Below are positions 975 to 64,000 of a DNA stretch of 64,000 nucleotides, piece by piece. The stretch is from Microglena sp. YARC (Eukaryota; Chlorophyta; Chlorophyceae; Chlamydomonadales; Chlamydomonadaceae): NCBI GenBank assembly GCA_022414725.1, contig CM039462.1, forward strand, positions 182,717,657 through 182,781,656. Reading direction: 5' to 3'. The first letter of the stretch is position 1. Each line of letters starts with the position of its first letter. The position numbers were made by a program, and so were the translations under genes. The notes beneath the pieces are model-generated. The model was not told where the DNA came from. It made no database searches and saw only the letters and a list, made by a program, of their open reading frames with translations.

Positions 975-1640
975 AGCGCCAGTCAGGATAGCGTGAGTCA
1001 TGCCCAATCCATCGACGCCACGGATCCCAGGGCAACGTGGTCTTCACCGTTAAAAGAGCTCATCACCTGGTCCTCGTAGTAGGATCTACGAGCCTTCGAT
1101 TGCGGCAGCTCCATGGGTCTTGTTAGACTTGGATCCGCCTCGGATTCAGGATAGCTTGAGTCATGTCCAATCCATCGACGCCACGGATACCTAAGCACCG
1201 TGGTTAATGATCTGCGTGGAACTGTGCTGGTGCATCTCATCCAAAGTTGTGGTCCGCCTCGGATTCAGGATAGCTTGAGTCATGTCCAATCCATCGACGC
1301 CACGGATACCTAAGCACCGTGGTTAATGATCTGCGTGGAACTATGCAGGTGCATCTCATCCAAAGTTGTGGTCCGCCTCGGATACAGGATAGCTTGAGTC
1401 ATGTCCAATCCATCGACGCCACGGATACCTAAGCACCGTGGTTAATGATCTGCGTGGAACTGTGCTGGTGCATCTCATCCAAAGTTGTGGTCCGCCTCGG
1501 ATACAGGATAGCTTGAGTCATGTCCAATCCATCGACGCCAGGGATACCAAAGCACCGTGGTTTATAATCTGTGTGGAACTGTGCTGGTGCATCTCATCCT
1601 AAGTTGTGGTCCGCCTCAGATTCAGGATAGCTTGAGTCAT
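975..1640 (-). repeat. Tandem array derived from the 3' end of the OPR gene
   Basis: The word CATGTCCAATCCATCGACG recurs at about 120-base spacing (near 1163, 1283, 1403, 1523, 1640), with a more diverged copy near 998. The right-most copy is the true end of the OPR coding region (ending SMDW then TGA at 1637-1639). The left-most copy (998-1130) also keeps codons for the preceding residues, ending VASMDWA. These are tandem copies of the terminal coding edge and downstream sequence, with no sign of a separate gene. Confidence 0.8.
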
Positions 1641-4600
1641 GTCCAATCCATCGACGACACGGCACCGTGGTCTACACCGTCATAGGAGCTCATCGCCTGA
1701 TTCTCTTCGTAGGATCGGAAATCCTCTGACTGCTGCAGCTCCATGGGCCCTGTCAGACCCCCTACCATTGCGGGCGCAGCCCCCTCATCGTCCCCAGGGT
1801 ACAAGAGTTCCCGAGGCCCTCGCCTGCGCCTGCGTATCGACTTCTGCTCCTTCCAGACCTGACGCTCTTCCCTCGAGACCTGACGTTCCTCGTCCCAGTT
1901 GATCCAGGCAGAGGTTGGATCGCTTTGTCTCATGAGCTGTTCTTGCCTCGCGGGCGTTAGGGGGTCGTTCGGGTCGTGCTCAGGTTCATACTCACCACCC
2001 TGCTCATCTGCATACTCATCCCCATGCTGACCCCCCCACCCATCCTCATGCTCATGCTCATCCCTCTGCTCATCCGCATACTCAAACTCATCCTCCTGCT
2101 GATGCTCACTCTTACTAGAAGCTACAGAGCTATACCCTCCCGCCGCATCGCGGTTCACACTGTCCCAAGAGGCAGCACTAGGGCCAGGTTCATCTATATT
2201 GGGCTCAGGTGTAATGTCAGTGGCTTGGGAGACGCCTGCTTCTCCTGTCGAGTCTGGACCAGGATCATCCATACTGCGCTGAGGTGTGATGTCAGTGGCT
2301 TGGGAGACGCCTGCTTCTCCTGTCGAGTCTGGACCAGGTTCATCCATACTGGGCTGAGGTGAAATGTCAATGGCACGGGAGGCAGCCCCCTCTTCTGTCG
2401 AGCCTATGCTGGGAGCAACAAACCGGCTTGACTCTATTGCTTCACTTGTTGAATCTGCGACTCTGCTACTCGATTCGGCCATTCTGCTATTTGACTCAGC
2501 TACTTGGCTACTTGACTTAGCTACTTCAGCTACTTGACTGCCACCACCCGGGCCCTTGGAGCGCCCCTCCACATCGGCATCAGCTCTAGTGAAGTCGGGA
2601 CCAAAAGGATGGCTCTCTGTCTGCCCCCCTGCCAGGCTGGCAGCGCTAGATTCTGCCTGCTGGTTACTTTCTACACGATCCTGCAGTCCGGAATCTTCAG
2701 CTGAGCTGGACACCTCTCCCGTACCTCCAGTACTGCTCACCCTGCTACCAGCAAAGCTGGAGATCCCCCAACCAGATCCTCCAACACCAGTGCTACTGCT
2801 ACTGACGGGTGGCACCACTCCATTCATGACCCTCGGCGCCATCACGCCCTTCGAAGGTATCATCAATGGGGAGGCCCTAATGCCCCCCCTGCCTTGGGCT
2901 ACTGTGAAAAAGGGAGGGCCATAGCCGCCCAACACCAGGTTTTCAGATCTACGCAAGCCACTCTCAGCCGCGGCCTCCATAGAGAGCGGCACCTGGAACG
3001 CGTCCAAACTCATGCTGTCATCCTCTAGTGACTGCCCTGCAGTGTCTACTTGCTTCAACCTAATGCCGCGGCTCTCCGCAAAGTCAAGCAAGGTCCAAGG
3101 GGTATAGCCAACAAGCCGACAAGACTTCACTACACTGTTCAACGCCTGCAGGGTCAAAACGTTGAGGTTGAGGGTGGGGTTAAGGTTGAGGTTGAGTATG
3201 AGGATAAGAATGAGATGAGGGTGGGGGTTGAGGTTTAGGGTGAGTATGAAGATAGGAAGGAGATGAGGCATGAATGCATGATGCACAACCCCCCTCCCCG
3301 CCGCTCCCTTACACCCCACCTCCATAACAATGCCATATAAATTCACCAGCCACCCATCCACACATGGTTGCTCGGGCGTCTCCAGCATCCGAATGCACTG
3401 CCGCACACACGCGAGGTACACTCTCAGGTTATCGTACCCACCCCAACCCCCCTGCCCCCCCTCTCCCACACCCCACTGCCATGACACTTACATAGAAATT
3501 CATCAGCCTCCCATCTGCATTCCGCTGCTCGGGCGACTCCAGCATCCGAATGCACTGCCGCACACACGCGTAGCACACTCTCAGGGAATCGTACCCATTC
3601 CCACCCCACCGCTTCCTGTCCCCCTCCCCGCCGCTCCCCCACACCCCACTGCCATGACACTTACATAGAAATTCATCGGCCGACCTTCTGCATTTGGCTG
3701 CTTGGGCACCTCCAGCATCCGAATGCACTGCCTCACACACGCATAGTACACTGCCAGGTTGTCATAGCCCACAGCACTAAGGCCAAACAGAAGAGAGGTT
3801 ATGTCATCGGTTTGCATTTGCGAAATCTGCTGCTCAGCGTGCTCTGCTATCTCGACCACAAGTGGGTGGCCTGGATGGCAGCCTAAGCGAGCGAAGGCCT
3901 TCATTGTCAGACTCAGGCCCTGCAGGAAAGTGCGGTGTGGAGGGTGTGTGAGTGTGGAAGGGTGTGTGAGTGTGGAGCGGGTGGCCTAGATGACAGCCCA
4001 AGCGTGCAAAGGCCTTCATCATCAGATGCAGGCCCTGCAGGAAAGTGCGGTGTGGAGGGTGTGTGAGTGTGGAAGGGTGTGTGAGTGTGGAAGTGGGTGG
4101 CCTGGATGACAGCCCAAGCGTGCAAAGGCCTTCATCGTCAGACGCAGGCCCTGCAGGAAAGTGCGGTGTGTGAGTGTGGAAGGGTGTGGGGGTTGAAGGG
4201 TGGAAGGGTGTGGAGGGTGTGAGGGTGGAAGGGTGTGAGGGTGGAAAGGGGTGTGTGAGGGTGGAAAGGGGTGTGTGAGGGTGGAAGGGTGTGTGTTTGT
4301 GTACGTGCAGCTTAGTGAGGGTCTTAATCTGAAGTCTGGTAGGACACCTGGAAAAATGTCATCGTCATAACCATCATTTCATACCTGAGGCGTTAAATGA
4401 TCGATGTGGATGAAAGCTGCAATAAGGAGCATGTCGACAAAGGGTGATTGCTTCACTGCCTTCTCGACCTCTGCTGGGTGGGCCTGCCTCCACTCCAGTA
4501 GCTGCTGCCAGGCAGCAGGCCTGCGGTGCTCCAGCTCCGAAACCAGCTGCTGCATCTGCGCATCACTGCCCCGCCAGTTTGCAGGGTGGTGCAGGAACAC

Positions 4601-5678
4601 ACCGTATGACCACAGGGCCATCACCACGTCCTGATTGCTGAGCTGCAGTATACGCGAGGCTATTACAGGTGCGCTTGCGTTCAATAGTTGGCGGCTGTAC
4701 TGCCTTGCCTGCGTGTACGCGTACAGCACCTGGCTCATCTCGTTGGGCTGGAAGTCGAGGAGGGCGGGGGCGAAGTGGGGGGCTACGGACATGAAGGCGC
4801 TAGGCTTGTAGCGGAGCTTGACAAAAGAATGTAGGGAGTTGGCTACGTCCTGGGGACCAAGGTAGGGCATGAGCCGCATGAGGCTGTCCTCCATACGCTG
4901 CATGAACTTCAGGCTTGGCTTCTGCCGCAACTTGGACAGGCTCCACAACGTAACCACCAGTTCCTGCCAGTGGCGGGGTGGGTTTGGTTGGCTGGTTTGG
5001 TTGAGTTGGTTGAGTTGGGTTGAGTTAGGTGGTCTGGGTTGCTTGAGTTGGGTTGGTTGAGTTGGGATGGGTGGGATGGGGTGAATGGAGTGGTGTTGTG
5101 TGTGTTGTGTCCAGTTCAGAAGGCGTGGTGTTGTGTGTTGTGTTGGGTAGACTAAGGGGGTGGGTAGGGTGGGGGGTGGAGGCTCTCATCTTTGTGTGGC
5201 GTGGTGTATGTGCATTTGGATATGGATTTGGTAATAGTTTCACTATGGTGCGTGCGTGAGTGCATACTTTTGTGTGCGTGTGAGTAGTCCTGCGGTAGGT
5301 CAAGTGAGTGAGTGTGGGTTCCTGGTGTTCGTGTTAGTGTGTGTATGTATGTGAGTGTGTTTGAGTGTGTATGTGTGTGCGTGTGTAGTCCTGTGGTAGA
5401 TCAAGCGAGTGAGTGTGGGTACCTGGTGTGCGTGTGTAGTCCCGTGGTAGGTCAAGTGAGTTAGTGAGTGAGTGAGTGAGTGAGTGTATCTGGTGTGTGT
5501 GACCAAGTCGCTTGAGGATGAAGAGTCGGGGGTACGACTCCCCCTTCGGTCGCTCTTGGCGTTGCAGGTCGTTGTCAACCGCGATGGTAGCTTGTCCAGT
5601 TGAGGTAGGAGACCGCTCCCCACCCGCGTACGATGGGCTCCCTTAACACCACGCCCCACCAGGCGTTATCATTTATCT

Positions 5679-5718
<40 letters not shown>

Positions 5719-6249
5719 TGTGCATTTGTATGGTAGCTCAAAGAGAGTTAGTGTGTGTATCTGGTGTGTGTGTGTGTGCATTTGTATGGTAGCTCAAAGA
5801 GAGTTAGTGTGTGTATCTGGTGTGTGTGTGTGTGCATGTGTTTATGTTTTAATGTGTGAGTGTGGGTATGCGTATCTGTATGTGTGTGTATGAGTATCTG
5901 GTGTGTGTGCGTACGTGTGTGTGTGAGTGTTAGTGATAAGCGCACCTGGCATCCAAATTCATCCATCTTCCACATCACCACATCCATGACAGCCTCGCAC
6001 AATGTCTTCACTTCGTTTGGGGGGATTGTGCCCAGTCGTGCTAAGCCCCAAATTACTTGAGAAACCTCGTGGGGTTTACAGTCTTCTAGCTGGCACAGCA
6101 CAGCCTAAGAAGGGAGGAGGGCGGTTGTTAGCTGCTGCTGTGTGTGTGTGTGTGTGGACGTGTTTATGGGGAGTTTGTGCCCAGTTGGGTGTTCAGTCTT
6201 CTAGGTGGAAAAGCATAGGCTAGCAAGGGAGGAGGGCGGCTGTTACATG

Positions 6250-6300
<51 letters not shown>

Positions 6301-7452
6301 GGGAGTTTGTGCCCAGTTGCGCTAAGCCCCACATAACTTGAAACACCTCATGGGGTGTTCAGTCTTCTAGGTGGAAAAGCATAGGCTAGGAAGGAAGGAG
6401 GGAAGGTGACAGATGCTGTGTGCGGCATGCAAGTTTCAAAATTTCAAACAGTGGTGTTGCATTTCCTCACGATGGAAAGTTTACCAAGTTTTACAGGGTG
6501 GTAGTGACCAAGTTTCCAATTTCAAGATTTTACTCTCTTAGCAGCTCTTAGTTTCGAAATTTTGAAGAGTGTACATGATTTCAAAGATTGTACTCTCTCG
6601 CCATGGGAAAGGTACCAAGAAGTACAGGGTGGTAGTGCCCAAGTTTCAAAAATTCAAATATTAAACCTCGCCATGGTAATTCTTCTGAGAAGTACAGGTG
6701 GTAGTGCCCAATTTTCGAAAATTCAAATATTTCAACCTCGCCATGGTAATACTTCTGAGAACTACAGGTGGTAGTGCCCAATTTTCGAAAATTCAAATAA
6801 TTCAACCTCGTTATGGTAATACTTCTGAGAAGTACAGGGTGGTAGTGCCCAAGTTTCGAAAATTCAAATACTGCAACCTCACCATGTTAATACCTCTGAG
6901 AAGTACAGGTGATGGTGGTAGTGCCAAAAATTCATAAATTCAAATATTGCAATCTCACCGTGATAAGACTTCTGAGAAGTACAGGTGATGGTGGTAGTGC
7001 CCAAGTTTCAAAAGTTCAAATATTGCAATCTCACCATGATAATACTTCTGAGAAGTACAGGGTGGTAGTGCTCGAAGCGTCCAAAAGCAGTCATGATCTG
7101 GGCACAGTCCACGGGTTTCAGAGTCTCCTCGCCTAGAGTAGCGCCCCTAAAGCATATGCGTTGGAACACGTCCTGGTTGTAGTGCCCCAGTGAACTGAAC
7201 CCCCAGAGAGACAGGGATACGTCCCACATCTCAAAAGCGTCAGCTTTAGCAAGAACGATTCCATCTAGGGCTTGTAGTGCAGACCCAATCAGGGCTTGGG
7301 ACACCAAGGGTCTGCCAGGGTCAGAGCGGCTTTTGCCACTCTCTTTTAAGGACAGCCTAGCCATGCGGTGGAGGGCAAAGGCCGCGTTGGAGCTTTGGAA
7401 GGACGAGCCGTCAGCTAGCACCAACTTGCACAGCTCGGTGACAGAGTGTTGC
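1637..7452 (-). CDS. Octotricopeptide-repeat (OPR) type RNA-binding protein, multi-exon, 5' end missing
   Basis: Seen: exons, in transcript order, 7452-7059, 6104-5946, 4963-4385, 3919-3665 and 3145-1637, all with AG acceptors and GT donors and joining in phase 0. They encode about 965 residues; the upstream exon at the 5' side was not found. The first four exons carry degenerate helical repeats of about 38 residues with motifs such as IWGLARLGTIPP, LWSLSKLRQKP, LHSFVKLRYKP and FGRFEHYHP. The last exon is low complexity: Ser-rich VAESSS-like repeats, a 29-residue repeat (2190-2370), an acidic Glu/Asp/His stretch (1960-2110) and a short RRRRR run near 1820. Known: OPR proteins act in chloroplasts or mitochondria of green algae, binding specific organelle transcripts for stability or translation. 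Inference: this is such a factor; its target RNA cannot be told. No RAP or nuclease domain was recognised. Confidence is high for the family type and moderate for exon edges. Confidence 0.72.
3326..3664 (-). repeat. Two extra copies of the 3' edge of an OPR exon with its donor site
   Basis: The 3' part of exon 3919-3665 (encoding YACVRQCIRMLE and MNFY, then a GTAAGT donor) is repeated at about 3590-3492 and 3433-3334. The middle copy keeps an intact GTAAGT at 3486-3491. The far copy has lost the GT (GGCATT at the same place). Both lie inside the intron between exons 3919-3665 and 3145-1637. Confidence 0.8.
3920..4320 (-). repeat. Copies of the 5' edge of an OPR exon, then TG-rich minisatellite
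   Basis: The acceptor (CCTGCAG) and first 45 or so bases of exon 3919-3665 are repeated near 4040-3985 and 4165-4105, separated by GTGTGAGTGTGGAAGG repeats. From 4166 to 4310 only degenerate GGGTGTGTGAGGGTGGAA units remain. All lie inside the preceding intron. Confidence 0.8.
4964..5945. repeat. OPR intron filled with GTTGG, GTGTGAG and TG repeats
   Basis: This intron lies between exons 6104-5946 and 4963-4385. It holds GGTTGAGTTGG-type repeats (4980-5060), GTGTTGTG repeats, GTGAGTGA repeats (5450-5490), a SINE-like insertion (5500-5680), TG runs (5680-5720) and three copies of a unit containing CATTTGTATGGTAGCTCAAA. No exon candidate was seen. Confidence 0.7.
5500..5685 (-). mobile_element. 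SINE-like family copy in OPR intron
   Basis: The segment is nearly identical to 585-720 and ends, on the minus strand, with the family sequence ATAACGCCTGGTGGGGCG. It contains a GGGTACGACTCCC word that could be a decayed B-box. The flanking TG repeats obscure target-site duplications. Confidence 0.6.
6105..6425 (-). repeat. Copies of the 5' edge of OPR exon 6104-5946, with a pure TG run
   Basis: The acceptor side and first half of exon 6104-5946 recur at about 6225-6170 and 6395-6305, recognisable by GTGCCCAGTTG, ACTTGA and GTCTTCTAG words. Between them lies an uninterrupted (TG)n run at about 6251-6297. The copies have drifted and do not stay open. Confidence 0.75.
6470..7058 (-). repeat. 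Array of about eight copies of the 3' edge of OPR exon 7452-7059
   Basis: Units of about 70-80 bases repeat a minus-strand reading close to the exon end (LGHYHPVLL, against FEHYHP then the GTACTT donor in the gene). Each unit keeps the CACCCTGTACTTCTCAG-like exon/intron junction. The array occupies the intron immediately after the exon it copies. Confidence 0.8.
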
Positions 7453-7479
7453 CTGAGGCAGTAGGAAGGAAGCCAGGTT

Positions 7480-8625
7480 GTAGTGTTAGTGGTGGTGGCG
7501 GTGTTTACGGTAGTGGTTGTGGTGGTGGTAGTGGTGGAGTTAGTATGTACACATGCATGCACACACAAAGACACCCCCATGCATGCAAACACATGCACCC
7601 ATGCTAACACACACACATGCATACACAGACACAAACAGGCACACCCCCATGCATGCAGACACATGCACCCATGCTAACACACACACGCATGCATACACAG
7701 ACACAACAGGTACACACCCATGCGTGCAAACACGTGCATACATGCACACACCCATGCAAGCACATTCACACACATACACAAACACATGCACCCACAAACA
7801 AACACACCCATGCACACACACACACACCCCAGCTAGCAGCATGCATCAAGCACACACACACATGCACCCACAAACAAACACACCCATGCACACACACACA
7901 CACCCCAGCTAGCAGCATGCATCAAGCACACACACATGCACCCACAAACAAACACACCCATGCACACACACACACCAGCTAGAAGCATGCATCAAGCACA
8001 CACACACATGCACCCACAAACAAACACACCCATGCACACACACACACACACCAGCTAGCAGCATGCATCAAGCACACACACACATGCACCCACAAACAAA
8101 CACACCCATGCACACACACACACACCCCAGCTAGCAGCATGCATCAAGCACACACACACATGCACCCACAAACAAACACACCCATGCACACACACACACC
8201 AGCTAGCAGCATGCATCAAGCACACACACATGCACCCACAAACAAACACACCCATGCACACACACACACACACCAGCTAGCAGCATGCATCAAGCACACA
8301 CACACATGCACCCACAAACAAACACACCCATGCACACACACACACCAGCTAGCAGCATGCATCAAGCACACACACACACATGCACCCACAAACAAACACA
8401 CCCATGCACACACACACACACCAGCTAGCAGCATGCATCAAGCACACACGCACATGCACCCACAAACAAACACACCCATGCACACACACACACACACCAG
8501 CTAGCAGCATGCATCAAGCACACACACACACACCAGCTAGCAGCATGCATCAAGCACATATATGCACAAACACATGCACCCACAAACAAACACACCCGTG
8601 CACACTATTACACACGTCCCTCAGC
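7480..8625. repeat. CA-rich minisatellite, 62-70 base units
   Basis: After GT-rich triplets (7490-7545), about eleven units contain CAGCTAGCAGCATGCATCAAG followed by CACACA runs and CACCCACAAACAAACACACC. Unit length varies with the CA run. Open frames rich in His/Thr (plus) or Cys/Val (minus) are artefacts of the repeat. The array would lie in the next upstream intron of the OPR gene if that gene continues. Confidence 0.85.
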
Positions 8626-8975
8626 TAGCAACAACCTATTCAGCAGGAAAAACAATGCGCTCGAAGGTGCTTGGAAAGGTTCCAAAGACCCAGATACTCA
8701 ATCACAAAAAAAAAGATAACGCCTGGAGGGGGCGTGGTGTTAAGGGGACCCCCCCGTACGCCGCAGCTGGGGAAAGTCACTATGGCAGACATAGTTAGTG
8801 TCACCCTCCAGGCAGTAGGGACTCCTTCATGCGACGTGTGGCAAGAATGCTGGTACAGGAGGCAATAGAGTCTCTGTGCAGCAGAGATGAGTTTGTCTCC
8901 GTGTTCGCGACTACTCTATCACTACCCAAGCAGATCAGACACAGAACGCTACATTCAATTCCATTGTCTTAGGCG
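8625..8975. mobile_element. SINE-like family copy and flanking unique sequence
   Basis: From 8715 to about 8870 (plus orientation) the segment carries the ATAACGCCTGGAGGGGGCG family end and a longer body shared with 34600-34730 (GTCACTATGGCAGACATAG). The flank at 8640-8705 read on the minus strand gives an OPR-like LGLWNLSKHL, so a decayed upstream OPR exon is possible, but I found no donor in frame. Confidence 0.55.
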
Positions 8976-9565
8976 TGTCATTGGTGACCCAAGACAAGAC
9001 TTGCTGTACAACATTGTTGACCCTACTGTACATCATTGTTGACCCTACTGTACATTATTGTTGACCCTACTGTACATCATTGTGGACCCTACTGAACATC
9101 ATTGTTGAACCTACTGTACATCATTGTTGACCCTACTGTACGTCATTGTTGACCCTACTGTACATCATTGTTGACCCTACTGTACATCATTGTTGACCCA
9201 AGACAAGACTTGCTGTACAACATTGTTGACCCTACTGTACATCATCGTTGACCCTACTGTACATCATAGTTGACCCAAGACAAGACTTGCTGTACAACAT
9301 TGTTGACACTACTGTAAATCATCGTTGACCCTACTGTACATCATAGTTGACCCAAGACAAGACTTGCTGTTCAACATTGTTGACAATACTGTACATCATT
9401 GTTGACCCTACTGTACATCATCGTTGACCCAAGACAAGACTTGCTGTACAACATTGTTGACCCTACTGTACATCATCGTTGACCCTACTGTACATCATAG
9501 TTGACCCAAGACAAGCCTTGCTGTACAACATCGTTGACCCTACTGTACATCATTGTTGACACTAC
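8975..9565. repeat. Compound array of a 22-base unit (TTGTTGACCCTACTGTACAT)
   Basis: About 20 units of TTGTTGACCCTACTGTACAT plus CA are interspersed with six copies of a longer unit containing CCAAGACAAGACTTGCTGTA. The longer unit resembles a dispersed sequence at 26850-26880 (minus strand). No gene is visible. Confidence 0.85.
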
Positions 9566-9800
9566 CCCTCCCCCCCCCTCCCCCCCCTCACTTTTTTTAT
9601 CTTTCTCCCATTCGCATTCTTCTCTTCATACTCTCTTTTCCCCCCCTGCACACCCACTCCCTCCCCCACCCACCCCCTTCCCCTGCTCCACCCCCTCACT
9701 TTTTGATATTTCTCTGATTAGCATTCTCTTCTTCATACTCCCCCTCCTCCTCCTGTACTGCCTGTACTGCCCCCCCCTTCTCCAGCTTTACTTGGCCAGC
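9566..9800 (+). repeat. Pyrimidine-rich tract
   Basis: About 230 bases of C and T with few purines, holding two related blocks (CTCACTTTTT...TCTC near 9588 and 9697). Such tracts can form triplex DNA; nothing else is apparent. Confidence 0.7.
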
Positions 9801-9949
9801 AAACCCAGCATGTCTTCCATTCACAAGATGTAAGGTCTCGGTCTCGCCATCATCAGGTGACTCCTGCCCGCTGAACTCCTCTGACTTATTGACTATAGCC
9901 TGGCGGGCGGGCAGGCATCTACTTGGCTGGTGCGGTGAGACAAGTCTGT

Positions 9950-27462: not shown

Positions 27463-27519
27463 TTGAACCCAGGAGGCGGGTCTCCCGACACAAAGCAGTG
27501 GCACCAAGGTATCAGTTCT

Positions 27520-48814: not shown

Positions 48815-48918
48815 CGGATGAAAGATGATATCCTTGGTGATAACGTGGGTAGAGCTACTTTCTTGGATATCACTGTTGGCCAGGTGATGCAAGCTCCCAA
48901 AGGCAAAGCTAATCCTCA
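48815..48918 (+). CDS. Unassigned exon, second copy
   Basis: Counterpart of 30680-30783, with the same acceptor, reading frame and GTAAGT donor. Its conservation between copies says little because the whole unit is nearly identical. Confidence 0.35.
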
Positions 48919-49179
48919 GTAAGTCAACGAGTTCCTGATAAACAAGTTGAAGTTGATGCCTGGGCCTGGGCAGAAAGTTGGGCCTGGGCCTGGTCCAGTG
49001 CCAAAAAAGTGGGCCTGGGTCAGTGCCTGAAAGTTGGGCTTGTGCCAAAAATTTAAAGTTCATGTCTGGGCCAGTCTTGCATGTGCTGGCGCTTCCAGCA
49101 GCCACCTTCAGTGTGTCAAAGGCGTGGCCTGTCTTGTTTGTTGTCACAGTCCAGGGGTAGGCCAAATAGGCTAAAGGAT

Positions 49180-51953: not shown

Positions 51954-54900
51954 ATGGACATCAGCGATCTGGAGGAGCATGAGAGGGGTCTGGCCGTGTA
52001 GCCACAGATATAATTGAGGCACAAGGCCAGGCCAAGGCACAGGCACAGGGCAGTGGGCCAGGCTACACAGGCAAAGACAACCGTGATGTAAGGGTGCATG
52101 AGAGGGGGGTCTGGCCGTGTAGCAGAAGACACTTCTGAGGCTAGGGCACAAGGCAGTGTGCCAGGCTACACAGGCAAAGGCAGCAGTGACGCAAGGAGTG
52201 AGGTGCACGACCTAAGCGAAGGGGCTCAGCGTGATGTGCACACACGTGTGGCTGCACAAGCACAGGCACAGGGCAGTGGGCCAATTTACACAGGCAAAGG
52301 CAGCAGTGACACAAGGAGTGAGGTGCAGGACCTAAGCAAAGGGGCTCAGCGTGATGGGCACACAGCGGTGGCTGCACAGGCACAGGCACAAGGCAGTGAG
52401 ACAGGCTACGTAGGCACAAACAACCGTGGTGCTGGGGCTCAGAGTGATGTGCACCAGCTACCAACACATGTCTGGGTCCAAGTTTCTGACACTCTGTGAT
52501 GTCGATACATTATGGAGCATGACAGCCACATGCAGGTAGATTGTTTTTTTGTTTTTTTTTAAATTTGAATTCGAATTTGAATTGATACATGGTTCTCCAG
52601 CTAACTCTGGGGTGCTCACCGTCTGCCAATTCCGAGTCCCCCCGTGTAATAGCCACGGAAACCAGGGAGTACACAAAGCGGATTAGATATTTAAAACACT
52701 TGACAGTCAGTACCAATATTTTAGCCACACGTCGCATGAAGGAGTCCCTACCGCCTGGAGGGTGACACGTACTATGTCTGCCATGGTGACTTTCCCCAGC
52801 TGCGGTGTACGGGAGGGTCCCCTTAACACCATGCCCCTCCAGGCGTTTTTTTGTTGCCAGCCAATTTCAGGTAGAATTGAATATCATATGATACACGGTA
52901 CAATTTGAGTACTAAACCGCATCTTATCGCGTCTTATCGTATGTATTGATATATTGTATCGTATGATCGTATCATACCGTATGTATTGGCATGTCGTATC
53001 GTATGATCGTGATGTGTTGATCGTATCATACCGTATGTATTGATACATTATATTGTATGATTGTATGATCGTGATATGTTGATCGTATCATATTGAAATA
53101 TCGTACGATATCATACTTAACAACCCTAACTATAAAGAAACTGTCCTCTTTCCACAAGGGGTTTCACCCAATACGCACCGACCCTACGCCACGACTGTTT
53201 GGTTGTCCTCCTCAAGAGGGCGGGAGCCCCCAGGGTCACCTTGTTGTCCGTATGTGCGTGTAACCGTCTGACTGGAACGAAGCCTGGCACACCAACCAAC
53301 GGTCTCGTAACTAACTCGCTTCCGTTGCCACCTGTCGCTCTGTTGCGAACACTCTCTGCCAATTTTTAGCGTCGCTTGCGATGTTGCATAGAATTTGGCT
53401 GTTTGGTTGTTGCAGAATAGGCCAATGGATATGCTCATAAACATCACCACCTCCTCCCAAACCACAACGATCATGCCCACCCCAACCCCCAAGCCCCCAA
53501 CCCCTCCTCCCCATCACCACCTCCTCCCAAACCACAACGATCATGCCCACCCCAACCCCCAAGCCCCCAACCCTCCTCCCCATCACCACCTCCTCCCCAA
53601 CCCCAATCACAACCATCATGCCCACCCAACCCCCAAGCCCCCAACCCCTCCTCCCCATCACCACCTCCTCCCCAACCACAACCACAACCATCATGCCCAC
53701 CCCAACCCCCAAGCCCCCAACCCCTCCTCCCCATCACCACCTCCTCCCCAACCCCAACCACAACCATCATGCCCACCCCAACCCCCAAGCCCCCAACCCC
53801 TCCTCCCCATCACCACCTCCTCCCCAACCCCAACCACAACGATCATGCCCACCCCAACCCCAAGCCCCCAACCCCTCCTCCCCATCACCACCTCCTCCCC
53901 AACCCCAACCACATCCATCATGCCCACCCAACCCCCAAGCCCCAACCCCTCCTCCCCATCACCACCTCCTCCCCAACCCCAACCACATCCATCATGCCCA
54001 CCCAACCCCCAAGCCCCCAACCCCTCCTCCCCATCACCACCTCCTCCCCAACCCCAACCACAACCATCATGCCCACCTAACCTCCAAGCCCCCAACCCCT
54101 CCTTCCCATCACCACGTCCTCCCCAACGCCAACCACAACCATCATGCCCACCCAACCTCCAAGCCCCCAACCCCTCCAGCCAACCACCATCACCATCACC
54201 ACCACCACCATCACCATCACCACCACCACCATCACCATCACCACTATCACTATCACCACCACCACCATCACCACCATCACCACCTCCACCACCACCATCA
54301 CCACCACCACCACCACCACCACCACCATCACCATCACCACCACCACCACCACCACCACCATCACCACGCCCATCAACGCCCCATATAAAGCAACTGTCTT
54401 CTTCCCACAGGGGGCTTCACCCAAAACGCACTGACCCTACACCATGGCTGTTTGGTTGTTACATAACTGGCCCGTGGATGTGCTCCTGAACATCACCATC
54501 ACCTCCCCAACCCCAACCGCAACCATCATGCCCACCCAACCCCCAAGCCCCCAAACCCCTCCTCCCCATCTCCACCTCCTCTCCAACCCAACCCCAACCA
54601 TCATGCCCACCCCCAACCTCCAAGCCTCCAACCCCTCCGCCCAACCGCTGTCAACACCATCACCACCACCATCATCGTCCCCTATAAAGCAATTGTCTTC
54701 TTCCCACAGGGGGTTTCACCTGATACGCACCGACCCTTACGCCATCGCTGTTTGGTTGTTCAACAATAAGCCAGTGGATGTGCTCCTCTACGTATTCAAA
54801 ATCTGTGGCTCAAGCACGCAGCTTGAAGTTATGCATCAGCTGCTCGTATTGGGTAGGTTTTGGTGTTGAGTATGAGGCCCATGGACTGGATTGCAAGCAT

Positions 54901-57900
54901 TGGCTCAGGTGTGTGTTGGTACTGTGGGATTGGGGGGAGGGAGGGGGGGGGGGGGGAGGAGTGTGTGGCTCTACCACACAGCTCAAAGTTATGCATCAGC
55001 TGCTCGTCTTGGGTAGGTAGGGCATCTGATCAGATGTTCGTTGTATGTATGTATGCTACAGTCCAGGGGTAGGCCAAATAGGCTTAAGGGACTTGCCCAA
55101 CCGTGACAGGAAGGGCTAAAAGGAAAAGCATTGATGAACTGAACCCCCAACAACCGTGTTACTGTCCATTGAAGTGCAATGGTTGGAAATGTTCCGCTGA
55201 CAATAGCGTAAAATACCGAGAATCTGTGGCCCAAGCGCCCAGCTTGAAGTTATGCATCAGCTACTCGTCTTGGGTAGGTTGTTGTGTTGAGTATGAGGCC
55301 CATGGACTGGATGAGATGGGGGAGTATGTGCACCGTTGGCTACCAGAGTCTTTCTTATCAGCAACAAGCACCAGCTTTTAGGTAGCTCCTCTTCCTGGCT
55401 ATTCAGCCTAACCCCAAGCAGGCTAGAGCACCTTGAAGCCAGCATAATCACTTTTCTAGTACTGTTGAAATTTGTGGGCTTTGCCCAATGGCTGGCTCAG
55501 GGAGCTTCCTAGAAGCTGCTGCTCGTAGCTGAAAAGAAAAACGCCGCTGGCTACTAGCATTGGCTCAGGTGTATGTTGGTACAGTGGGAGGTGGGTGGGG
55601 TAAGTGTATGGCCCAAGCGTGCAGCTTGAAGTCATGCATCAGCTGCAGTCTTGGATAGGTGCGAATGGAACTGCAAATGGGCGCTTGCACACTCAAACTT
55701 TCAAAACTTGTCATTTTTGATACATCTTGCTTGCTTTAGCATATTGTGTTATCGTTATTGGCTCATACACCCAGCTTGAAGTTATGCATCAGCTGCTCGT
55801 CTTGGGTAGGTGTGAATGCAAATGCAAAGGGGCGCTTGCACACTCGAAGTTTTAAGTAATATGATTTTTTATCAGTGCAAGCAAACGGGCTGGCCCCCTC
55901 AACCTCACGCCGTGTAATAACTAATAATGCGTACTATTTATGTATGTATTTATTTATCATTTTTGATACATTTTGCTTGATTTAGCATACTGCAATATCG
56001 TTATTGGCTCAAGCACACAGCTTGAAGGTTTACATCATTTACTCGTCTTGGGTAGGTGCACAGGCAGCATTAAGAGAGTTTGTGGGTTTTGTTTTTGTGG
56101 TCTTGTTTGTGGTCTTGTTTGTGGTCTTGTCTTGGGTAAGGGCTCAACCAGCATCTAGAGAGCTTTTTGTCTTTTAGTTTTTTTTCTTTTGTGACCTTGT
56201 TTGTGGTCTTGTTCAGCTACTTGTCTTGGGTAGGTGCATGACCAGCATTGGGAGATTTTTTTTTACTTTTTTAAGTTTTTGTGGCCTTGTTTGTGGTCTT
56301 GTTCAGCTAATGCCTTGGGTAGGTGCACGGCCAGCATTGAGAGATCTTTTTGTTTTTGTTGTTGCGAACTTATTTCTGATCTTGTCTGTTATCTCGTTTG
56401 TGATTGTTTTTTATTCTGCTTGTGGTCGTTATTGTGATTGATTTTGTGTTAGTATATTTTGTCGTTTTGTGATCCTGTCTGTGATTATTTACGGGATCGT
56501 TTTTATGATTGCTTTAGCGACCCTGTCTATGATTCTTTGTGACATTGATTTTGTGATATTGCATCTGTGGGTGCTTTTGTGATCTATTGGTGTGTGTGTG
56601 TACTGGTGTGTGTGTGTACTGGTGTGTGTGTGTACTGGTGTGTGTGTGTACTGGTGTGTGTCTGTACTGGTGTGCGTGTACTGGTGTGTGTGTGAACTTG
56701 TGTGTGTGTGTACTGGTTTGTGTGAGTGGATTTGACTCTGAGAGTTAGTGGGTGTTGATTTTGTGATATTGCATCTGTGGGTGCTTTTGTGATTTTGCGA
56801 TTTCTCAGGGGCTCAGGCAATAAAACGTAAAAACAATACATCGTCTTTCAGCAAGCTGTTTTGGGGATACTGTCCAATGATTTTGTGCTTTTGTGATCTG
56901 TTTGTGGTTCTTTATGTCACGTTTTTGTGCTAGTTTTTTTTTAAACCTGCCTGTGGTTCTGTGTGACATTGATTGTGTGATAGCTTGTTGGGTTGCTTGT
57001 GTTATCTGTTTGTGATTGTTTATGTGATTGTTGTTATGCTTGCTTTATTGATCCTGTCTGTGATTCTTTGTCACATTGGTGGTGTGATATTGCTCTTGTG
57101 ATTCTTTATGTCACTGGTTGTTTTACCTCACCCCTTGAATAAGGCGTACTAATTATTTATTTCGCTGGTTTTGTGATTACTTGTGTGGTTGCTTTAGAGA
57201 TCCTGTCTGTAATTCTTTGTTTACACATATTGGTCGTGTAATTGCTTGTGATTATTTGTTAACACACCTTGGTTGTGTGATTGCTTTTATGATGCTGCTT
57301 TTGTAATCTATTTGTGATTCTTCATCTCACTGGTTTTGTGATTGCTTGAGTATTACTGTCCGTGATTCTTTGTGCCATTTATTTTGTGAAATCAATTTTG
57401 TGCGTAGAGTGTTGGCTATCAGAGCAACAGGTGGCACAAGAATCGAGCGCAGCAGACAAGCCAGGGTTTACGAGACAGTTGATTTGCAAATTTTATTTAC
57501 AAAAACGAAATGTTTCAAAAATAGTGAAAACCGCTGATTTGAAAAGAGCAATCTTTGTTTTATTACATTGCTTTATTAGTGGTTGGCCTCAGTACAAGCA
57601 AACGGGCTGGCCTCCTCAACCTCACGCCTCGAAATAAGGCATACTATTTATCTACTATTTATTTGCATTCACTATTTATTTACTTATTTATTTTCCTGAC
57701 AGGTTCCTGCTATTTATTTACATTAATTTGTGACTGACATGCCATTATTGGCCCTAGACAAGCCTACACCACATCATCCGGGAGGGGTCTTCCAGGAAAT
57801 CCTCAGAAAAAAGGCAATATTGAATCAAGCAAGCAAGCAAGATTGCGGCAAGCAAGCAGTATTACCAGCACACCATTTATAACAATTTATGCAGTATTAA

Positions 57901-60900
57901 TGTATATAATATATTGATAATATATTACCAGCATACCATGTATAACAATTTATGCAGTATTAATGTATATAATATATTGATAATATATTACCAGCATACC
58001 ATTTATAAAAATTTATGCAGTATTAATGTATATAATATATTGATAATATATTACCAGCATACCATTTATAACAATTTATGCAGTATTAATGTATATAATA
58101 TATTGATAATATATTACCAGCATACCATTTATAAAAATTTATGCAGTATTAATGTATATAATATATTGATAATATATTACCAGCATACCATTTATAACAA
58201 TTTATGCAGTATTAATGTATATAATATATTGATAATATATTACCAGCATACCATTTATAACAATTTATGCAGTATTAATGTATATAATATATTGATAATA
58301 TATTACCAGCATACCATTTATAACAATTTATGCAGTATTAATGTATATAATATATTGATAATATATTACCAGCATACCATTTATAACAATTTATGCAGTA
58401 TTAATGTATATAATATATTGATAATATATTACCAGCATACCATTTATAACAATTTATGCAGTATTAATGTTTATATTATATTGATAATATATTACCAGCA
58501 TACCATTTATAACAATTTATGCAGTATTAATATATATAATATATTGATAATATATTACCAGCATACTATTTACAAAAATGCCTTAGCCTCTACACAGGTG
58601 CCCACTGTTCGTCCTGGACGGGTATTACGGGTAATACCCGGGTATTACGGGTAGTACCCTGTGCGTCGAATAACATTTGTGGCGCGTTGACACACAAACA
58701 CCCCCTCGCACGCTGTGTACTGCTTCTGTGTGTACCCCTGCGTACTGCTCTGTGTACCCCCTGCGTACTGCTTCTCTGTGTACCCCCTGCTTCTCTGTGT
58801 ACCCAGTGTGTGTGCAACCTGGCAGTGATGGCTTCTCTGTCCTGCATCGTGCTGATTGCATTGCCTGCATTGGACAGGTTAGGATGCTAAGTGGTTAAGC
58901 TACACCAAAGCCTCTGCCCTGCCTTCTTTATAGGTGCCCAGCCCAATGTGTGCGACAGTGATGGCTTCTCTGTTCTTCATCATGCTGTTTGCATTTCTCG
59001 CATTGGACAGATTAAGATGCTCCTTCAGTGGGGTGCAGGTGAGGAGCTTTGAGTTTTTAAAGCAATTTCAGTAATGAATCTATTGTCTTCCGGCAAGCTG
59101 TTTTGGGTATATCTGCCCAATCCTTTGCGGCAATTGTATAAAAAAAAGTCTTTTAGAAAGCTGTTTTGGGGAGATCTGCCCAACCCTTGGCAGCAACAGT
59201 GTACAAAATAATAAATAAAACAAACAAACAAAACATCTTCTTTCAGAAAGCTGTTTTGGGGAAATCTGCCCAACCCTTGGCAGCAACAGTGTACAAAGTA
59301 ATAAGTAAAACATACAAACAAAACATCTTCTTTCAGAAAGCTGTTTTGGGGATAACTGCCCACCCCTTGGCAGCAACTGTATAACAATTAATAAATAAAA
59401 TAGACAAATAATTCATTGTCTTTCCGCAAGGTGTTTTGGGGATATCTGTCCAACCCTTTGCAGCAACACTAAAAAATAAAAAGCTGTCCTTTAGCTAGCT
59501 GTTTGGAGATATCTGCCCAACCATTTGTAGTAACAGTATAAAAAATAAGAACAACAACACATCGTCTTTCAGCAAGCTGTTTTGTGATATGTGCCCAACC
59601 CTTTCCAGCAACTGTATAAAACATAATAAACAAGTTCTATGCAGCGTCGCAAGCGACGCTAAAAATGGGTGGAAAGTGTTTGCAAAGGAGCCACAGCCAA
59701 CCAGGGTAATTCAAAGCGCGCGCTTTTGAGCGCTGACTTTTTGACCCCCTCTGCGCTCTAAGCGCAGTTTTTTGCAACTCCCTGTGGGCGCAGCAAGCAA
59801 TTTTTGCGCTTTTTGCACTAGAAAGCGCAGTTTTTTTGTTTTCAAGTGCGCTTAAGCGCTGGCCAATTTGGCAATTTGAAGTACCCTGCAGCCAACAGGT
59901 GGCACCGGAAGCCAGTTAGTTATGAAACCGTTGGCTGACATGTCAGGCTTCGTCTCGGTCAGACAGTCAGACGGTCACACTGATGGACAAATGGGTAACA
60001 GCCCCCTTGAAGGGGGGGCTCAGGCAATAAAACGTAAAAACAATACATCGTCTTACAGCAAGCTGTTTTGGGGATACCTGTCCAACCCTTTGCAGCAACT
60101 GTATAACTAGCCCAATGAGTGCGACAGTGATGGATTCACTCTCTTTCGTCCTGTTGTTTACATAGCTCGCATTGGACAGATTACGATGCTGCTACACTCT
60201 GGCGCAGGGTACTATATTCTCAAATTGGTCAAATTGGTCAGCGCTTTGAGAGCACAAATGTCAAATTGGTCAGCGCTTCGTAGTGCAAAAAGCGCAAAAA
60301 CTATGCGCTGCGCCCACAGGGGGTTAAAAAAACTGCGCAAAACGCGCAGTGGGGCTCAAAAAGCGTGCACAAAATCGCGCTGCCACGTGTGCTTTGTAGT
60401 ACTCCAGTCTGGGGCAGGTTAGGAGTTTCGAGTTTGAAGCCCTCTGCAGCAACTGGATAAAAAGCTGTATAAAAACTGTCCAAAAACTATTAAAAACCGT
60501 ATAAAACCTGTATTCAAAACTGAAATAAACAATATCTAGACATGTTTGGATGGTTTGCTGTGGCCTGGGAGCTAGGGCGGATATATTCACCCCGGCCTCC
60601 ACATGTAATGTAATGTAATAATAATAATAATCATTCATTCATACATACATACATACATACATACAGCTAAAGGGAGTTACCCTTTTAAGGGAGTTGCCCA
60701 GCTGTGGGAGTCGGGCCTTTACCTAACCTTGAACTCCCAACACAACTTACCTGAAGTCAATACGAATGGGGCTCATATCGGCTTGTCCGATTGACCTCTG
60801 TAACTAAGATAACTCTTAACAACGGATATCTTGGCTCTCGTAACGATGAAGAACGCAGCGAAATGCGATACGTAGTGTGAATTGCAGAATTCCGTGAATC

Positions 60901-63830
60901 ATTAAATCTTTGAACGCATATTGCGCTCGAGGCTTCGGCCAAGAGCATGTCTGCCTCAGCGTCGGGTTAATCTCTCGACTTATAGCCTCCCCTACTATTA
61001 AATTGGTACGCTATGTATTTATACATACATACATACATACATACATACATACATACATTTAACATACATACATACATACATACATACATACATACATACA
61101 TACATACATACATACATACATACATACATACATACATACGTACATACATACATACGTACATACATACATACATACATACATACATACATACATACATACA
61201 TACATACATACATACATACACACATATACATACACACATACATACATACATAAATACATACATACATACATACATACATACATACATACATACATACATA
61301 CATACATACATACATACATACATACATACATACATACATACATACATGCATGCATACATGTAATTCTGCCTGCTGCTATGGTAGGGCAGCGGCTTATCAT
61401 TTTGGTTTACATAGACTTGTCTGAACTCAGTGTTTGGGTGGGTTGGTGTGTCCCACAGTTGGAGTCGGGCAGATATGAACATTAACCCTGCTACATTGAC
61501 AGCTGGCATTCACCCTAACACATTGTACAATGTGCTTAGACCCTAACACATTGTACAACATGCGCAGAACCTAACACATTGTACAACGTGCGCAGACCCT
61601 AACACATTGACAGCTGGCATTGACCCTAACACATTGTACAACGTGCGCAGACCCTAACACATTGACAGCTGGCATTGACCCTAAGACATTGTACAACGTG
61701 CGCAGACCCTAACACATGGACAGCTGGCATTCACCCTAATACATTGACAGCTGGCATTGACCCTAACACATTGTACAACGTGCGCAGACCCTAACACATT
61801 GTGCAACATGCGCAGAACCTAACACATTGTACAACGTGCGCAGACCCTAACACATTGACAGCTGGCATTCACCCTAACACGTTGTACAACGTGCGCAGAC
61901 CCTAACACATTGACAGCTGGCATTGACCCTAACACATTGTACAACGTGCGCAGACCCTAACACATTGACAGCTGGCATTGACCCTAACACATTGTACAAC
62001 GTGCACAGACCCTAACACATTGACAGCTGGCATTGACCCTAACACATTGTACAACGTGCGCAGACCCTAACACATTGACAGCTGGCATTCACCCTAATAC
62101 ATTGACAGCTGGCATTGACCCTAACACATTGTACAACGTGCGCAGACCCTAACACATTGACAGCTGGTAGCCACACACCCCTTTGCTCGGCATCACTGGT
62201 GGGTGATACGGAGACCATGTCTGTTCTGCTCTCAGCGGGGGCTTTGCCCAACGCCCCTGGCTGCCAGCTCAGCCCTCTGCACATTGCCAGGTAGGAAGGC
62301 TATCACGACCACCTCTCCATCCATCACTGTTTCTCTTTTTGGCGGAGCCCCCTCTTCAAGGGGGCGGGAGCCCCCAGGGTTACCTATGTATCCATCCGAC
62401 CGACCGACCTTCTGACCGAGACGAAGCCTGACATGTCAGCCAACAGTCTCAAAACTAAATCGCTTCCGTTGCCACCTGTCGCTCCCTCGCTAACACTCTC
62501 CACCATTTTTTAGTGTCGCATGCATGCTACGCTGCTCTGAACTTTTTGTACTATGCTGAGGGGAGATCTCTGTTGGACTCTATGTGCGGACAGGACTAGG
62601 ACACACTGTTTCTCTTTTGAGCTACGTGTAGCAGCTTCTAGGCAGCTCCCTTTCCCTGTCCTTGGGCCAGATTTAAAAGAATAAAAAGTGTCTGTCAGGT
62701 GTTAATGTAACTGTAGCTTTTAGCTGATTGATAGGGGTTTCTCCCTATGGGGTGGTAGGAGGTGGGGCCCCTTCCACAAACCAGTGTCACCGAGGATTCA
62801 GAAATAAAGGCAGATAAATCCTTACATAAAAGTAATGACAACGCCTGGTGGGGCGTGGTATTAAGGGAGCCCCGTCTTGCGGTGGTAGAGAACGGGGCTC
62901 CCTTACTTAAAATCCCTGCATAAGTAGACCCCCATATAGTGAGACGTGAAACGTGATGTTTTGAACAAACCTGTCCACCACAACCACCGCCCACCACTCA
63001 CCACCCACCACCCACCACCCGCCACCCGCCACCGCCACCCACCTCCCACCACCCGTCACCCGCCACCCGCACCCAACACCCAACCGTCTTATAGCAACCA
63101 GGGGCATGCGCATGCAGTTAAGGTGCTCTACAACCCTGCCCTCCACCCACCACCCACCTCCCACCACGAACCACGCACCACCCACCACCTTGCAGCAACC
63201 AAGGGCATGCGCATGCAGTTAAGCTGCTCCTACAACACGGAGCTGATGTGCTAGCTCCCAGTTTGGATGCCCTTCCTCCCCTGGACCTGGCTTGAGACGA
63301 GAAACGTTACGTTTTGAACAGCCCTGCCCACCACCCACCACCTACAACCTACCACCTTGCAGCAACCAAGGGCTTACGCATGCAGTTAAGCTCCTACAAC
63401 CCTGCCTACCACCTACCACCCACCACCCACCACCCACCACCCACCTCCCACCACGCACCACCCACTCCCTTGCAGCAACCAAGGGCATGCGCATGCAGTT
63501 AAGCTCCTACAACCCTGCCTACCACCTACCACCCACCACCCACCTCCCACCACGCACCACCCACCACCTTGCAGCAACCAAGGGCATGCGCATGCAGTTA
63601 AACTGCTCCTACAACACGGAGCTGATGTGCTAGCCCCCAGCTTAGATGGCCTCACTCCACTGGACCTGGCTTGTAGTGCCATGAAGACAGACGTTGTTCC
63701 TCTGTTGGCAGGCACTACAGCCGAGATCTCAATGAAAGCGCTCCAGTCTGCATTCGTCCGCTCGGTCCAGGCTGGCGCGGTGGAAGTTGCTCAGCAGCTT
63801 CTGACTGTTGGGGCATTGGTAACTGCTCAG
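51954..63830 (+). CDS. F-box/ankyrin repeat protein, copy 2, continuing past the window
   Basis: Exons are 51954-52535, 54710-54852, 58934-59038, 62164-62290 and 63575-63830, with phases 2, 1, 1, 2 and 0 all matching. Exon 1 ends in the F-box-like LPTHVWVQV; exon 2 completes it ([16 protein letters not shown]). Exon 3 encodes an ankyrin repeat ([23 protein letters not shown]), exon 4 another ([34 protein letters not shown]), and exon 5 two more ([47 protein letters not shown]). The donor after exon 5 is GTGGGA, so the gene continues. Exon 1 has three homopolymer changes relative to copy 1 (one G lost near 51986, one gained near 52108, one T gained near 52484), the last of which breaks the F-box frame; exon 2 is intact. 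Role inferred from domains: substrate receptor of an SCF-type ubiquitin ligase. Ankyrin proteins with other partners are an alternative. Confidence 0.7.
53140..54709 (+). repeat. Second copy of exon 2 edge copies, C-rich minisatellite and (ACC)n array
   Basis: Counterpart of 35012-36581, including the 12-base-flanked insertion (about 53204-53396). Unit number and G/C run lengths differ slightly, which changes the artefact Pro/His frames. Confidence 0.85.
54853..56350 (+). repeat. Copies of the 3' edge of F-box exon 2, extending beyond the duplication
   Basis: The copy 1 set (CTTGAAGTTATGCATCAGCT then GTAGGT) is repeated up to 56060. Beyond the duplication end, two more degenerate units follow near 56215-56235 and 56305-56325 (TTGTTCAGCTA, CTTGGGTAGGTGCA). 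The right breakpoint of the 18.1 kb unit therefore falls within a repeat array, as the left one does. Confidence 0.8.
56350..57400 (+). repeat. TG-rich degenerate array in ankyrin intron
   Basis: Loose units around TTTGTGATTGCTTTAGCGAT and CCTGTCTGTGATTCTTTGTG repeat over 1 kb. A tight block of seven TGTGTGTGTACTGG units is at 56590-56710. A CAAGCTGTTTTGGGG fragment near 56851 belongs to the family at 59080-59640. Confidence 0.7.
57860..58580. repeat. AT-rich 63-base minisatellite, about eleven units
   Basis: The unit is ACCAGCATACCATTTATAAC, AATTTATGCAGTATTAATG, TATATAATATATTGATAATA, TATT. Copies differ at one or two positions. The unit length is a multiple of three, which keeps a spurious 246-codon frame open. 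Confidence 0.92.
58590..58930 (+). repeat. Decayed copy of the ankyrin exon 3
   Basis: Near 58800-58890 the string GCAACCTGGCAGTGATGGCT, TCTCTGTCCTGCATCGTGCT and CATTGGACAGGTTAGGATGC copies exon 58934-59038. Upstream, CTGTGTACCCCCTGCGTACT repeats several times, and a GGTATTACGGGTA repeat lies at 58620-58655. Confidence 0.75.
59060..59640 (+). repeat. Eight units of the CAAGCTGTTTTGGGGATATC repeat
   Basis: Units of 65-85 bases carry AAGCTGTTTTGGGGA, TCTGCCCAACCCTT and GCAGCAACTGTATAA, followed by A/T-rich filler. Further single units stand near 56851, 60060 and 60440. None is coding. Confidence 0.85.
59636..60030 (-). mobile_element. GTCGCAAGCGACGC-family repeat carrying a nested hAT MITE
   Basis: Parts are 59636-59701 (TCTATGCAGCGTCGCAAGCG) and 59889-60030 (AACAGGTGGCACCGGAAGCC, TGACATGTCAGGCTTCG, CCCTTGAAGGGGGGGCTC). 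Joined across the MITE they match 35077-35271 reversed. Confidence 0.75.
59702..59888. mobile_element. hAT-type MITE, 187 bases, 8-base target duplication
   Basis: It starts CAGGGTAATTCAAAGCGC and ends ATTTGAAGTACCCTG. The flanks CAGCCAAC at 59694-59701 and 59889-59896 are identical. It sits inside an older dispersed repeat. Confidence 0.92.
60100..60204 (+). repeat. Third copy of ankyrin exon 3, broken by a MITE
   Basis: GTGCGACAGTGATGGATTCA, then CGCATTGGACAGATTACGAT and CTGCTACACTCTGGCGCAG copy exon 58934-59038 to within a few bases of its donor. A hAT-type MITE follows directly, so any donor here was displaced. Confidence 0.75.
60205..60406. mobile_element. Diverged hAT-type MITE
   Basis: The left end is CAGGGTACTATATTC and the right end TAGTACTCCAG. 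The interior contains CAAATTGGTCAGCGCTT twice and AAAAAGCGCAAAAACTATGC. Only a partial flank match remains (CTCTGGCG against TCTGGGGC), so it is older or rearranged. Confidence 0.65.
60640..60810. repeat. Short CATA run and unassigned sequence before the 5.8S copy
   Basis: A (CATA)n run lies at 60640-60665, followed by a GGGAGTTACCC-like repeat. Nothing resembling the 3' end of 18S rRNA is visible. Confidence 0.5.
60811..60967 (+). rRNA. Isolated 5.8S rRNA copy, probable pseudogene
   Basis: From AACTCTTAACAACGGATATC to CTGCCTCAGCGTCGGG the sequence follows the universal plant/green-algal 5.8S, including ACGATGAAGAACGCAGCG, GAATTGCAGAATTCCGTG and TTGAACGCATATTGCGCTC. Compared with the consensus as I know it, changes are C to T at ACTCTTAAC and CTCGTAACG and CG to TA at AATCATTAAATC, all transitions. 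No 18S or 26S rRNA sequence flanks it; the downstream 50 bases could be ITS2, then a (CATA)n array begins. It lies inside an ankyrin-gene intron. A functional unit would need the full rDNA cistron, so I regard it as an orphan copy. Confidence 0.88.
61017..61350. repeat. (CATA)n microsatellite, about 330 bases
   Basis: Nearly pure ACAT/CATA tetranucleotides with a few substitutions (for example CACATATACATACACAC near 61220). Long Met-Tyr-Val-Cys or His-Thr-Tyr-Ile frames on both strands are artefacts. Confidence 0.95.
61500..62163 (+). repeat. Array of the 3' end of an ankyrin intron with acceptor
   Basis: About 17 segments built from ACCCTAACACATTGACAG, CTGGCATTGACCCTAACAC and ATTGTACAACGTGCGCAG. 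The true acceptor for exon 62164 reads ACACATTGACAG then CTGGTAGCC, so each CATTGACAGCTGG is a copy of that splice edge with only four exon bases included. Confidence 0.85.
62291..63094. repeat. Ankyrin intron with several dispersed repeats
   Basis: In order: a GTCGCAAGCGACGC-family copy (62345-62560), a half TIR element (TTGAGCTACGTGTAGCAGCT near 62615), the host-repeat family of the 20655 MITE (62740-62815), a SINE-like copy (62838-62900) and ACCACCCACC repeats from 62970. A GAGACGTGAAACGT word near 62941 recurs near 63293. Confidence 0.65.
63095..63574 (+). repeat. Four copies of the 5' edge of ankyrin exon 5
   Basis: The acceptor and exon start (CTTGCAG then CAACCAAGGGCATGCGCATG) recur at about 63096, 63193, 63360 and 63476 before the true exon at 63575. 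The copy at 63193-63290 extends about 100 bases into the exon and ends in TGA after LPPLDLA. The spacers are ACCACCCACCACC repeats. Confidence 0.88.
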
Positions 63831-64000
63831 GTGGGAACAAGAGGGTGTTGGTGTTTGTGTGTGGGTGTGTGTGTGGGGAGGTGCTCAGCAGCTTCTGGCT
63901 GTTGGGGCTTCGGTCACTGCCCAGGTAGGTACAAGAGGTGATGGGGTGGGTGTGGGGGTGGGGGGCGGATGTGTGTGTGGGGGTGAGGGTGTGGGGGGGG
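63831..64000 (+). repeat. Copy of the 3' edge of ankyrin exon 5, then TG-rich sequence
   Basis: At about 63880-63926, GTGCTCAGCAGCTTCTGGCT then GTTGGGGC and ACTGCCCAG with GTAGGT copies the exon end and donor at 63785-63830. GGGTGTGG repeats continue to the window edge. Confidence 0.85.

Follow-up and report, generated by a model that had tools for sequence, protein, structure and literature searches.

In the 64,000-nucleotide window analysed here (the whole stretch of Microglena sp. YARC contig CM039462.1 from position 182,717,657 to 182,781,656), introns of three genes contain tandem copies of the adjoining exon edge that run across the splice junction, and on sequence features these arrays are mirages, a rare pattern that is known from lancelets. 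The 60 bp centred on each junction was searched for a further copy no more than 3 kb away, with at least 75% identity and at least 4 bp aligned on each side, and one or more such copies were found for 17 of 31 junctions (8 donors and 9 acceptors, spread over the three genes). The positives are the E1, E3 and E5 acceptors and donors and the E4 acceptor in the SOUL gene, the E0, E and B donors and the D and B acceptors in the OPR-like gene, and the F2 and A3 acceptors and donors and the A2 acceptor in the F-box/ankyrin gene. The A1 acceptor is an eighteenth case, a diverged copy recognised by gapped alignment (score 50 against a maximum of 16 in 200 shuffles); the other 13 junctions gave no copy in the 60-bp test, gapped alignment having covered exon A1 only. 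Among the copies listed (up to six per junction), all lie on the intron side, and the copied exon edge ranges from about 4 to 105 bp. The similarity of the copies themselves goes far beyond chance (E-values down to 8e-20), and a stricter cut-off restricted to the intron side recovered 16 of the 17 junctions, the E0 donor being lost. Each junction was counted once despite a large duplication in the window, SOUL from its first copy and F-box from its second.

An earlier note on this DNA had linked intron arrays to splice junctions in three genes, and this stands for the 17 junctions above, but not as a universal link given the 13 without a copy. Its statement that introns on both sides of an exon are affected is confirmed by six exons with both borders copied (SOUL E1, E3 and E5, OPR B, F2 and A3). 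That each unit spans a junction is not borne out: 17 of 34 hand-listed intron arrays cross one and 17 cross none, the latter including those at 9004-9565, 7571-8558, 16841-17097, 22873-23253, 57845-58593 and 59061-59649.

Exon borders were checked against two annotated proteins, SOUL orthologues and the GT/AG rule, and all 31 junctions used are canonical in the three genes. The matching EukProt proteins are apparently the annotation of the same organism, to judge from their sequence. The SOUL heme-binding gene (15625..25865, + strand; exons 15625-15703, 17655-17761, 18444-18499, 19984-20079, 21492-21584, 25103-25246 and 25804-25865) encodes a product with a Pfam SOUL match (E 2.6e-40), and its model is backed by an orthologue alignment, the start exon having been located by tblastn. 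The annotated protein P0001 (EukProt gene3810-13880_t, 128 aa) is 100% identical to the model, covers 70% of the 184-aa query and starts within exon E3; the closest named relatives are from Chlamydomonas incerta (53%) and Edaphochlamys debaryana (51%). The OPR-like gene (1640..9900, - strand; exons 9700-9900 (part), 7035-7452, 5946-6104, 4385-4963, 3665-3919 and 1640-3145) matches the annotated protein P0182 (EukProt gene3813-13885_t, 1036 aa) at 99% identity over 100% of the query. Its OPR identity is the earlier note's name for the gene, kept as putative: a Pfam scan of the protein gave FAST_1 and CbiN only, both below cut-off, and P0182 carries PF26172.1 in the protein database. At one donor our model and the annotated protein differ, and we retained the residues absent from the latter because the paralogue P0183 (EukProt gene31146-6286_t, 50% identity over 52% of the query) has, by eye, similar ones there. 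By eye, P0183 also shows a 24-residue in-frame tandem repeat in the exon-B region. The F-box/ankyrin gene (51954..63830 and continuing past the window end, + strand; exons 51954-52535, 54710-54852, 58934-59038, 62164-62290 and 63575-63830) gave a Pfam Ank match (E 2e-18) on the typed A1-A3 protein; its F-box, which had no Pfam match, was assigned by eye. This model has no annotated match, the protein search having returned 61 ankyrin-type proteins, all at 45% identity or less.

In the SOUL gene (+ strand), the E1 acceptor array (17098..17654) repeats a unit of about 100-197 bp, consisting of the intron end and up to 81 bp of exon E1, with five crossing copies. The E1 donor (17762..18090) has a single copy 292 bp downstream, with 34 bp of exon end and 26 bp of intron, and this one passing copy is all that holds of an array previously claimed at 17762-18072. 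In the E3 acceptor array (18861..19983) the unit of 52-60 bp joins a CCCATAG acceptor to 26 bp of exon E3, and the AG is kept in 18 of 19 decoys; the E3 donor array (20080..20553) takes up to 52 bp of the exon end. The E4 acceptor array (21233..21491) holds 53 bp of exon start, the E5 acceptor array (23273..25102) has a unit of 81/168 bp with 15 bp of exon start, and the E5 donor array (25247..25457) a unit of 67 bp with 22 bp of exon end. A GCGC-rich dispersed element recurs, by eye, in introns at about 20660-20880, 22340-22570, 59700-59900 and 60209-60400.

In the OPR-like gene (- strand), exon B is accompanied by a donor array at 3286..3664 (unit about 173 bp, exon part up to 105 bp) and an acceptor array at 3920..4178 (unit 115 bp, about 60 exon bp). 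Copies of the exon D acceptor at 6105..6400 include about 90 exon bp, the exon E donor array at 6585..7034 has a 76-bp unit with an exon part of up to 52 bp, and the exon E0 donor copy at 9592..9699 is shifted by 108 bp with 79% identity.

In the F-box/ankyrin gene (+ strand), the F2 acceptor (53381..54709) has copies at -299 and -1552, on either side of a 75-bp array and each with some 50 bp of exon, and the F2 donor (54853..56360) has copies at +160 to +1377, with up to 54 exon bp and a spacing of 150-380 bp. The diverged copy of the A1 acceptor lies within 58785..58933, and exon A1 recurs nearly complete, again by gapped alignment, at 60109-60208 in the next intron. By eye, this further copy is seemingly broken just past its end by the dispersed element (60209-60410), donor-like sequence resuming near 60410. 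An intron of this gene also holds, on its own, a complete match to 5.8S rRNA at 60811-60964 (+; 162 bits, positions 1-154), besides which Rfam gave nothing at gathering score in the window. The A2 acceptor array (61465..62163) consists of 11 copies of a 55-bp unit; of the six listed, four include 4 exon bases and two include 11 with mismatches. The array reported earlier at 61500-62163 thus does cross the A2 acceptor, mostly by 4 exon bases only (four of the six listed copies). The A3 acceptor array (62925..63574) has copies holding 41-99 exon bp, and the A3 donor copy (63831..63961), shifted by 94 bp, holds 49 exon bp and 37 intron bp.

Part of the window is a head-to-tail direct duplication of 18.1 kb (19916-38035 / 38035-56152), 99.4% identical, with 20 mismatches and 62 indels in 18160 alignment columns, 49 of the indels being of 1-2 bp in a homopolymer context; homopolymer indels likewise separate exon 51954-52535 from its copy at 33825-34405. 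Both breakpoints fall inside junction-crossing arrays (SOUL E3 acceptor and F2 donor), and the duplication produces a SOUL copy that lacks the first three exons and an F-box copy that lacks the ankyrin exons. It may be an assembly duplication or a very recent one. The blocks that had been assigned to the F-box/ankyrin gene at 35012-38034 sit in the first copy of this duplication, which went unmentioned, and are cut off from the ankyrin exons; in the gene that continues, the corresponding arrays are at about 53.4-56.4 kb. For the region 35012-36390, the bulk of the array at 35329-36213 is the 75-bp unit, and only two copies in the corresponding second-copy region cross the F2 acceptor. Introner elements would place one element in many introns of unrelated genes; in a search confined to the window, all nine arrays flagged as dispersed overlap the duplication, and no array of the OPR gene proved to be mostly dispersed.

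We consider that these are probably mirage-type minisatellites that arose by generic local tandem duplication and are tolerated where the outermost splice site still works. Ordinary DNA-level duplication, whether by slippage, unequal exchange or end-joining, would hit this genome everywhere; coding exons would retain in-frame copies only, and introns any copy. Four coding-exon arrays that we picked have periods of 21 (consensus 22 bases), 30, 75 and 120, all multiples of three. Copies crossing a border would persist because the outermost, exon-adjacent splice site still joins an intact exon, with the spliceosome presumably skipping the decoys, and the introns may have expanded largely by such duplication from the short introns usual in relatives.

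The exon share of the unit varies between 0.12 and 0.79, in agreement with a uniform distribution (KS P=0.37, n=17; values entered by hand from the copy alignments, that of the E0 donor by eye), so that breakpoints do not lie on the junction, and the varied depth of unit ends within the exon speaks against a splicing-coupled origin and against one from spliced RNA, which the earlier note had suggested. Copy coverage is level (0.57-0.70) over the 300 bp of intron next to the border, is maintained for about the first 40 bp of exon and drops beyond that (16/28 at -40, 12/27 at -50, 4/19 at -60, 4/13 at -80 and 1/11 at -100), the value at the junction itself being taken from the 60-bp test and not from the profile, whose d=0 row (15 points) is faulty. 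Such a profile is what one would expect if intron duplications spill over into exons and long intrusions are lost to selection or kept short by the unit length, and it is also compatible with seeding at the border followed by growth. The splice dinucleotides of the decoys are kept in 64 of 93 cases against 70.3 expected under neutral decay, with an identity of 0.866 for the exon-derived half and 0.859 for the intron-derived half. The largest departures from neutral decay are the SOUL E5 acceptor (AG kept in 4/19, 13.4 expected) and the OPR E donor (GT kept in 2/6, 4.6 expected). For the mirage trait of a boundary unit that is excluded from homogenisation, similarity to the real junction was compared with distance from it in three arrays; it falls with distance at the E5 acceptor (Spearman P=0.035), with P=0.25 at the E3 acceptor and 0.60 at the A2 acceptor. 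From the varied unit ends together with the neutral-looking decay of the decoys, we infer generic tandem duplication with splicing that ignores the decoys.

A rather unlikely competitor is that tandem duplication starts preferentially at splice borders, for example because co-transcriptional R-loops or spliceosome assembly stall replication, which would make junctions true hot spots. This had been proposed before, and its support depends on how copies are counted. A local tandem copy is present at 3227 of 6392 sampled window positions, and with half of all positions so covered there is therefore no excess in raw coverage: shifted junction sets gave 15.6 +/- 3.0 covered against 17 seen (P=0.40). 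By class, copies cover 17/31 junctions, 282/450 intron positions less than 150 bp from a junction, 1314/2092 in intron interiors, 107/186 at exon edges, 162/423 in exon interiors and 1362/3241 outside genes; after removal of low-complexity positions (dust 1.0), the values are 14/27 for junctions, 756/1404 for intron interiors and 1009/2660 outside. Because raw position coverage is confounded by copy number, we dropped it as the final answer and added tests in which each family is counted once, and the two approaches disagree. At 75% identity and with dispersed repeats removed, 16 of 29 junctions carry a copy, compared with 29% of positions in collapsed introns (P=0.0033) and 16% in intergenic sequence (P=2e-6), so that junctions are covered about twice as often as introns and at least three times as often as intergenic sequence. 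Two of the 31 junctions were left out here as low complexity, and the binomial P values apply to junctions that, within one exon, are not fully independent. The excess is still present at 85% identity (13/29 against 19% in introns, P=0.0016, and 8% in intergenic sequence), but at 90% (7/29 against 13.5% and 6%) that over introns is no longer significant (P=0.087). An earlier form of the test gave 17/31 junctions against 15.8% outside genes, 15.8% in introns minus junction arrays and 13.8% in exon interiors.

Counting arrays points the same way, as 17 of 34 cross a junction where 9.2 are expected with introns collapsed and dispersed repeats removed (P=0.0015), the array list being hand-made, with the A1 acceptor scored as crossing and the A3 donor omitted, its intron leaving the window. 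The expectation is 7.5 with introns collapsed to one copy per array and 4.0 with introns as they are; with the three weakest arrays set as non-crossing, 14 remain against 7.5 (P=0.0045). This excess vanishes, however, if the ancestral introns were of about 200-300 bp, since uniform seeding would then predict 18.5 (200 bp), 15.9 (250) or 13.9 (300) crossing arrays out of 34, against 11.2 at 400 bp and 8.0 above 600 bp; intron medians reported for six relatives are 198-343 bp (PMC8226300). Such an account predicts that junction arrays are older, which is not seen: the idea that they are simply older failed, with a median nearest-copy identity of 0.832 vs 0.817 (P=0.55). Hot spots could explain the excess in event counts, and so could a border that is the oldest part of its intron, the rest having been filled with younger sequence afterwards. 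For hot spots speaks further that donors and acceptors are both affected; against them, besides the raw coverage, stand a register that is not fixed at the junction and a border profile that forms a shoulder and not a peak, even though growth of arrays into the intron would hide a peak, and the evidence comes from three genes and a hand-made list. Preferential seeding at splice borders is thus left undecided. The bolder version, in which borders are genuine hot spots of repeat birth in this alga and introns lengthen outward from the exon because a DNA lesion linked to transcription or splicing, and not random duplication, causes their own ends to be copied, appears slightly less probable again.

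It is quite improbable that the exon-derived copies regulate splicing as functional decoys or alternative exon starts, the first of which the earlier note had also raised as a possible effect. The AG or GT kept in roughly two thirds of the decoys and the in-frame repeat of P0183 would fit this, but retention is no higher than neutral, with no sign of use or counter-selection, and the half that comes from the exon is no better conserved than the half from the intron. In addition, 12 of the 17 junction-crossing units, with lengths known approximately, are not multiples of three, and P0001 and P0182 contain, by eye, none of the decoys. Multiplication of exon edges by long-read misassembly is the least probable explanation, for although the 18.1-kb duplication is suspicious in its ratio of mismatches to indels, the 17 junction-crossing arrays have nearest-copy identities of 0.67-0.97, which would be more divergence than read error is expected to give, and the OPR-like gene, outside the duplication, shows the same pattern.

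The earlier note took the link between arrays and junctions for a process not yet described; the same thing is known from lancelets under the name of mirages, in which exon/intron boundaries are repeated in the manner of minisatellites, reportedly with no disturbance of splicing (PMC3087553; PMC3902484). They were reported gene by gene, in Adh3 and the globins BflGb6 and BflGb9 (PMC3087553), with troponin C and PGBD5 added by PMC3902484; the units are given as 10-72 bp in Adh3 and 150-160 bp in the globins, those of BflGb6 being 81-100% alike, and the mechanism is called unclear there (PMC3087553). There as here, tandem units cross the exon-intron boundary, on the donor as well as the acceptor side, and many but not all units, as far as the lancelet reports describe them, keep the AG or GT. 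Length instability between haplotypes or in the soma is a further mark of mirages. The present case differs in that it concerns a green alga, known from the sequence of one assembly alone, with all three genes and about half of their junctions affected. The green-alga lineage and the density of mirages are what is new; among the titles and abstract openings that searches on green algae listed, we recognised nothing as this phenomenon.

Two other systems are partly comparable, as their reports describe them. Human internal tandem repeats at exon-intron boundaries (PMC2812944) likewise involve minisatellite expansion, which there changes gene structure, but their units have a mean length of 30 bp and are located in recent segmental duplicates, and new introns as well as alternative transcripts can arise from them. 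Intron gain by duplication of proto-splice sites (PMC4974935) shares the local tandem duplication of splice-site sequence, whereas there one exon duplication makes both new intron ends and here existing introns copy one border.

With mirages at about half of the splice junctions in three genes of a single window, this green alga offers one genome in which to count whether repeats start at splice borders or merely run across them. A splicing problem is posed as well, namely how the one real acceptor is selected when as many as 19 similar sequences precede it.
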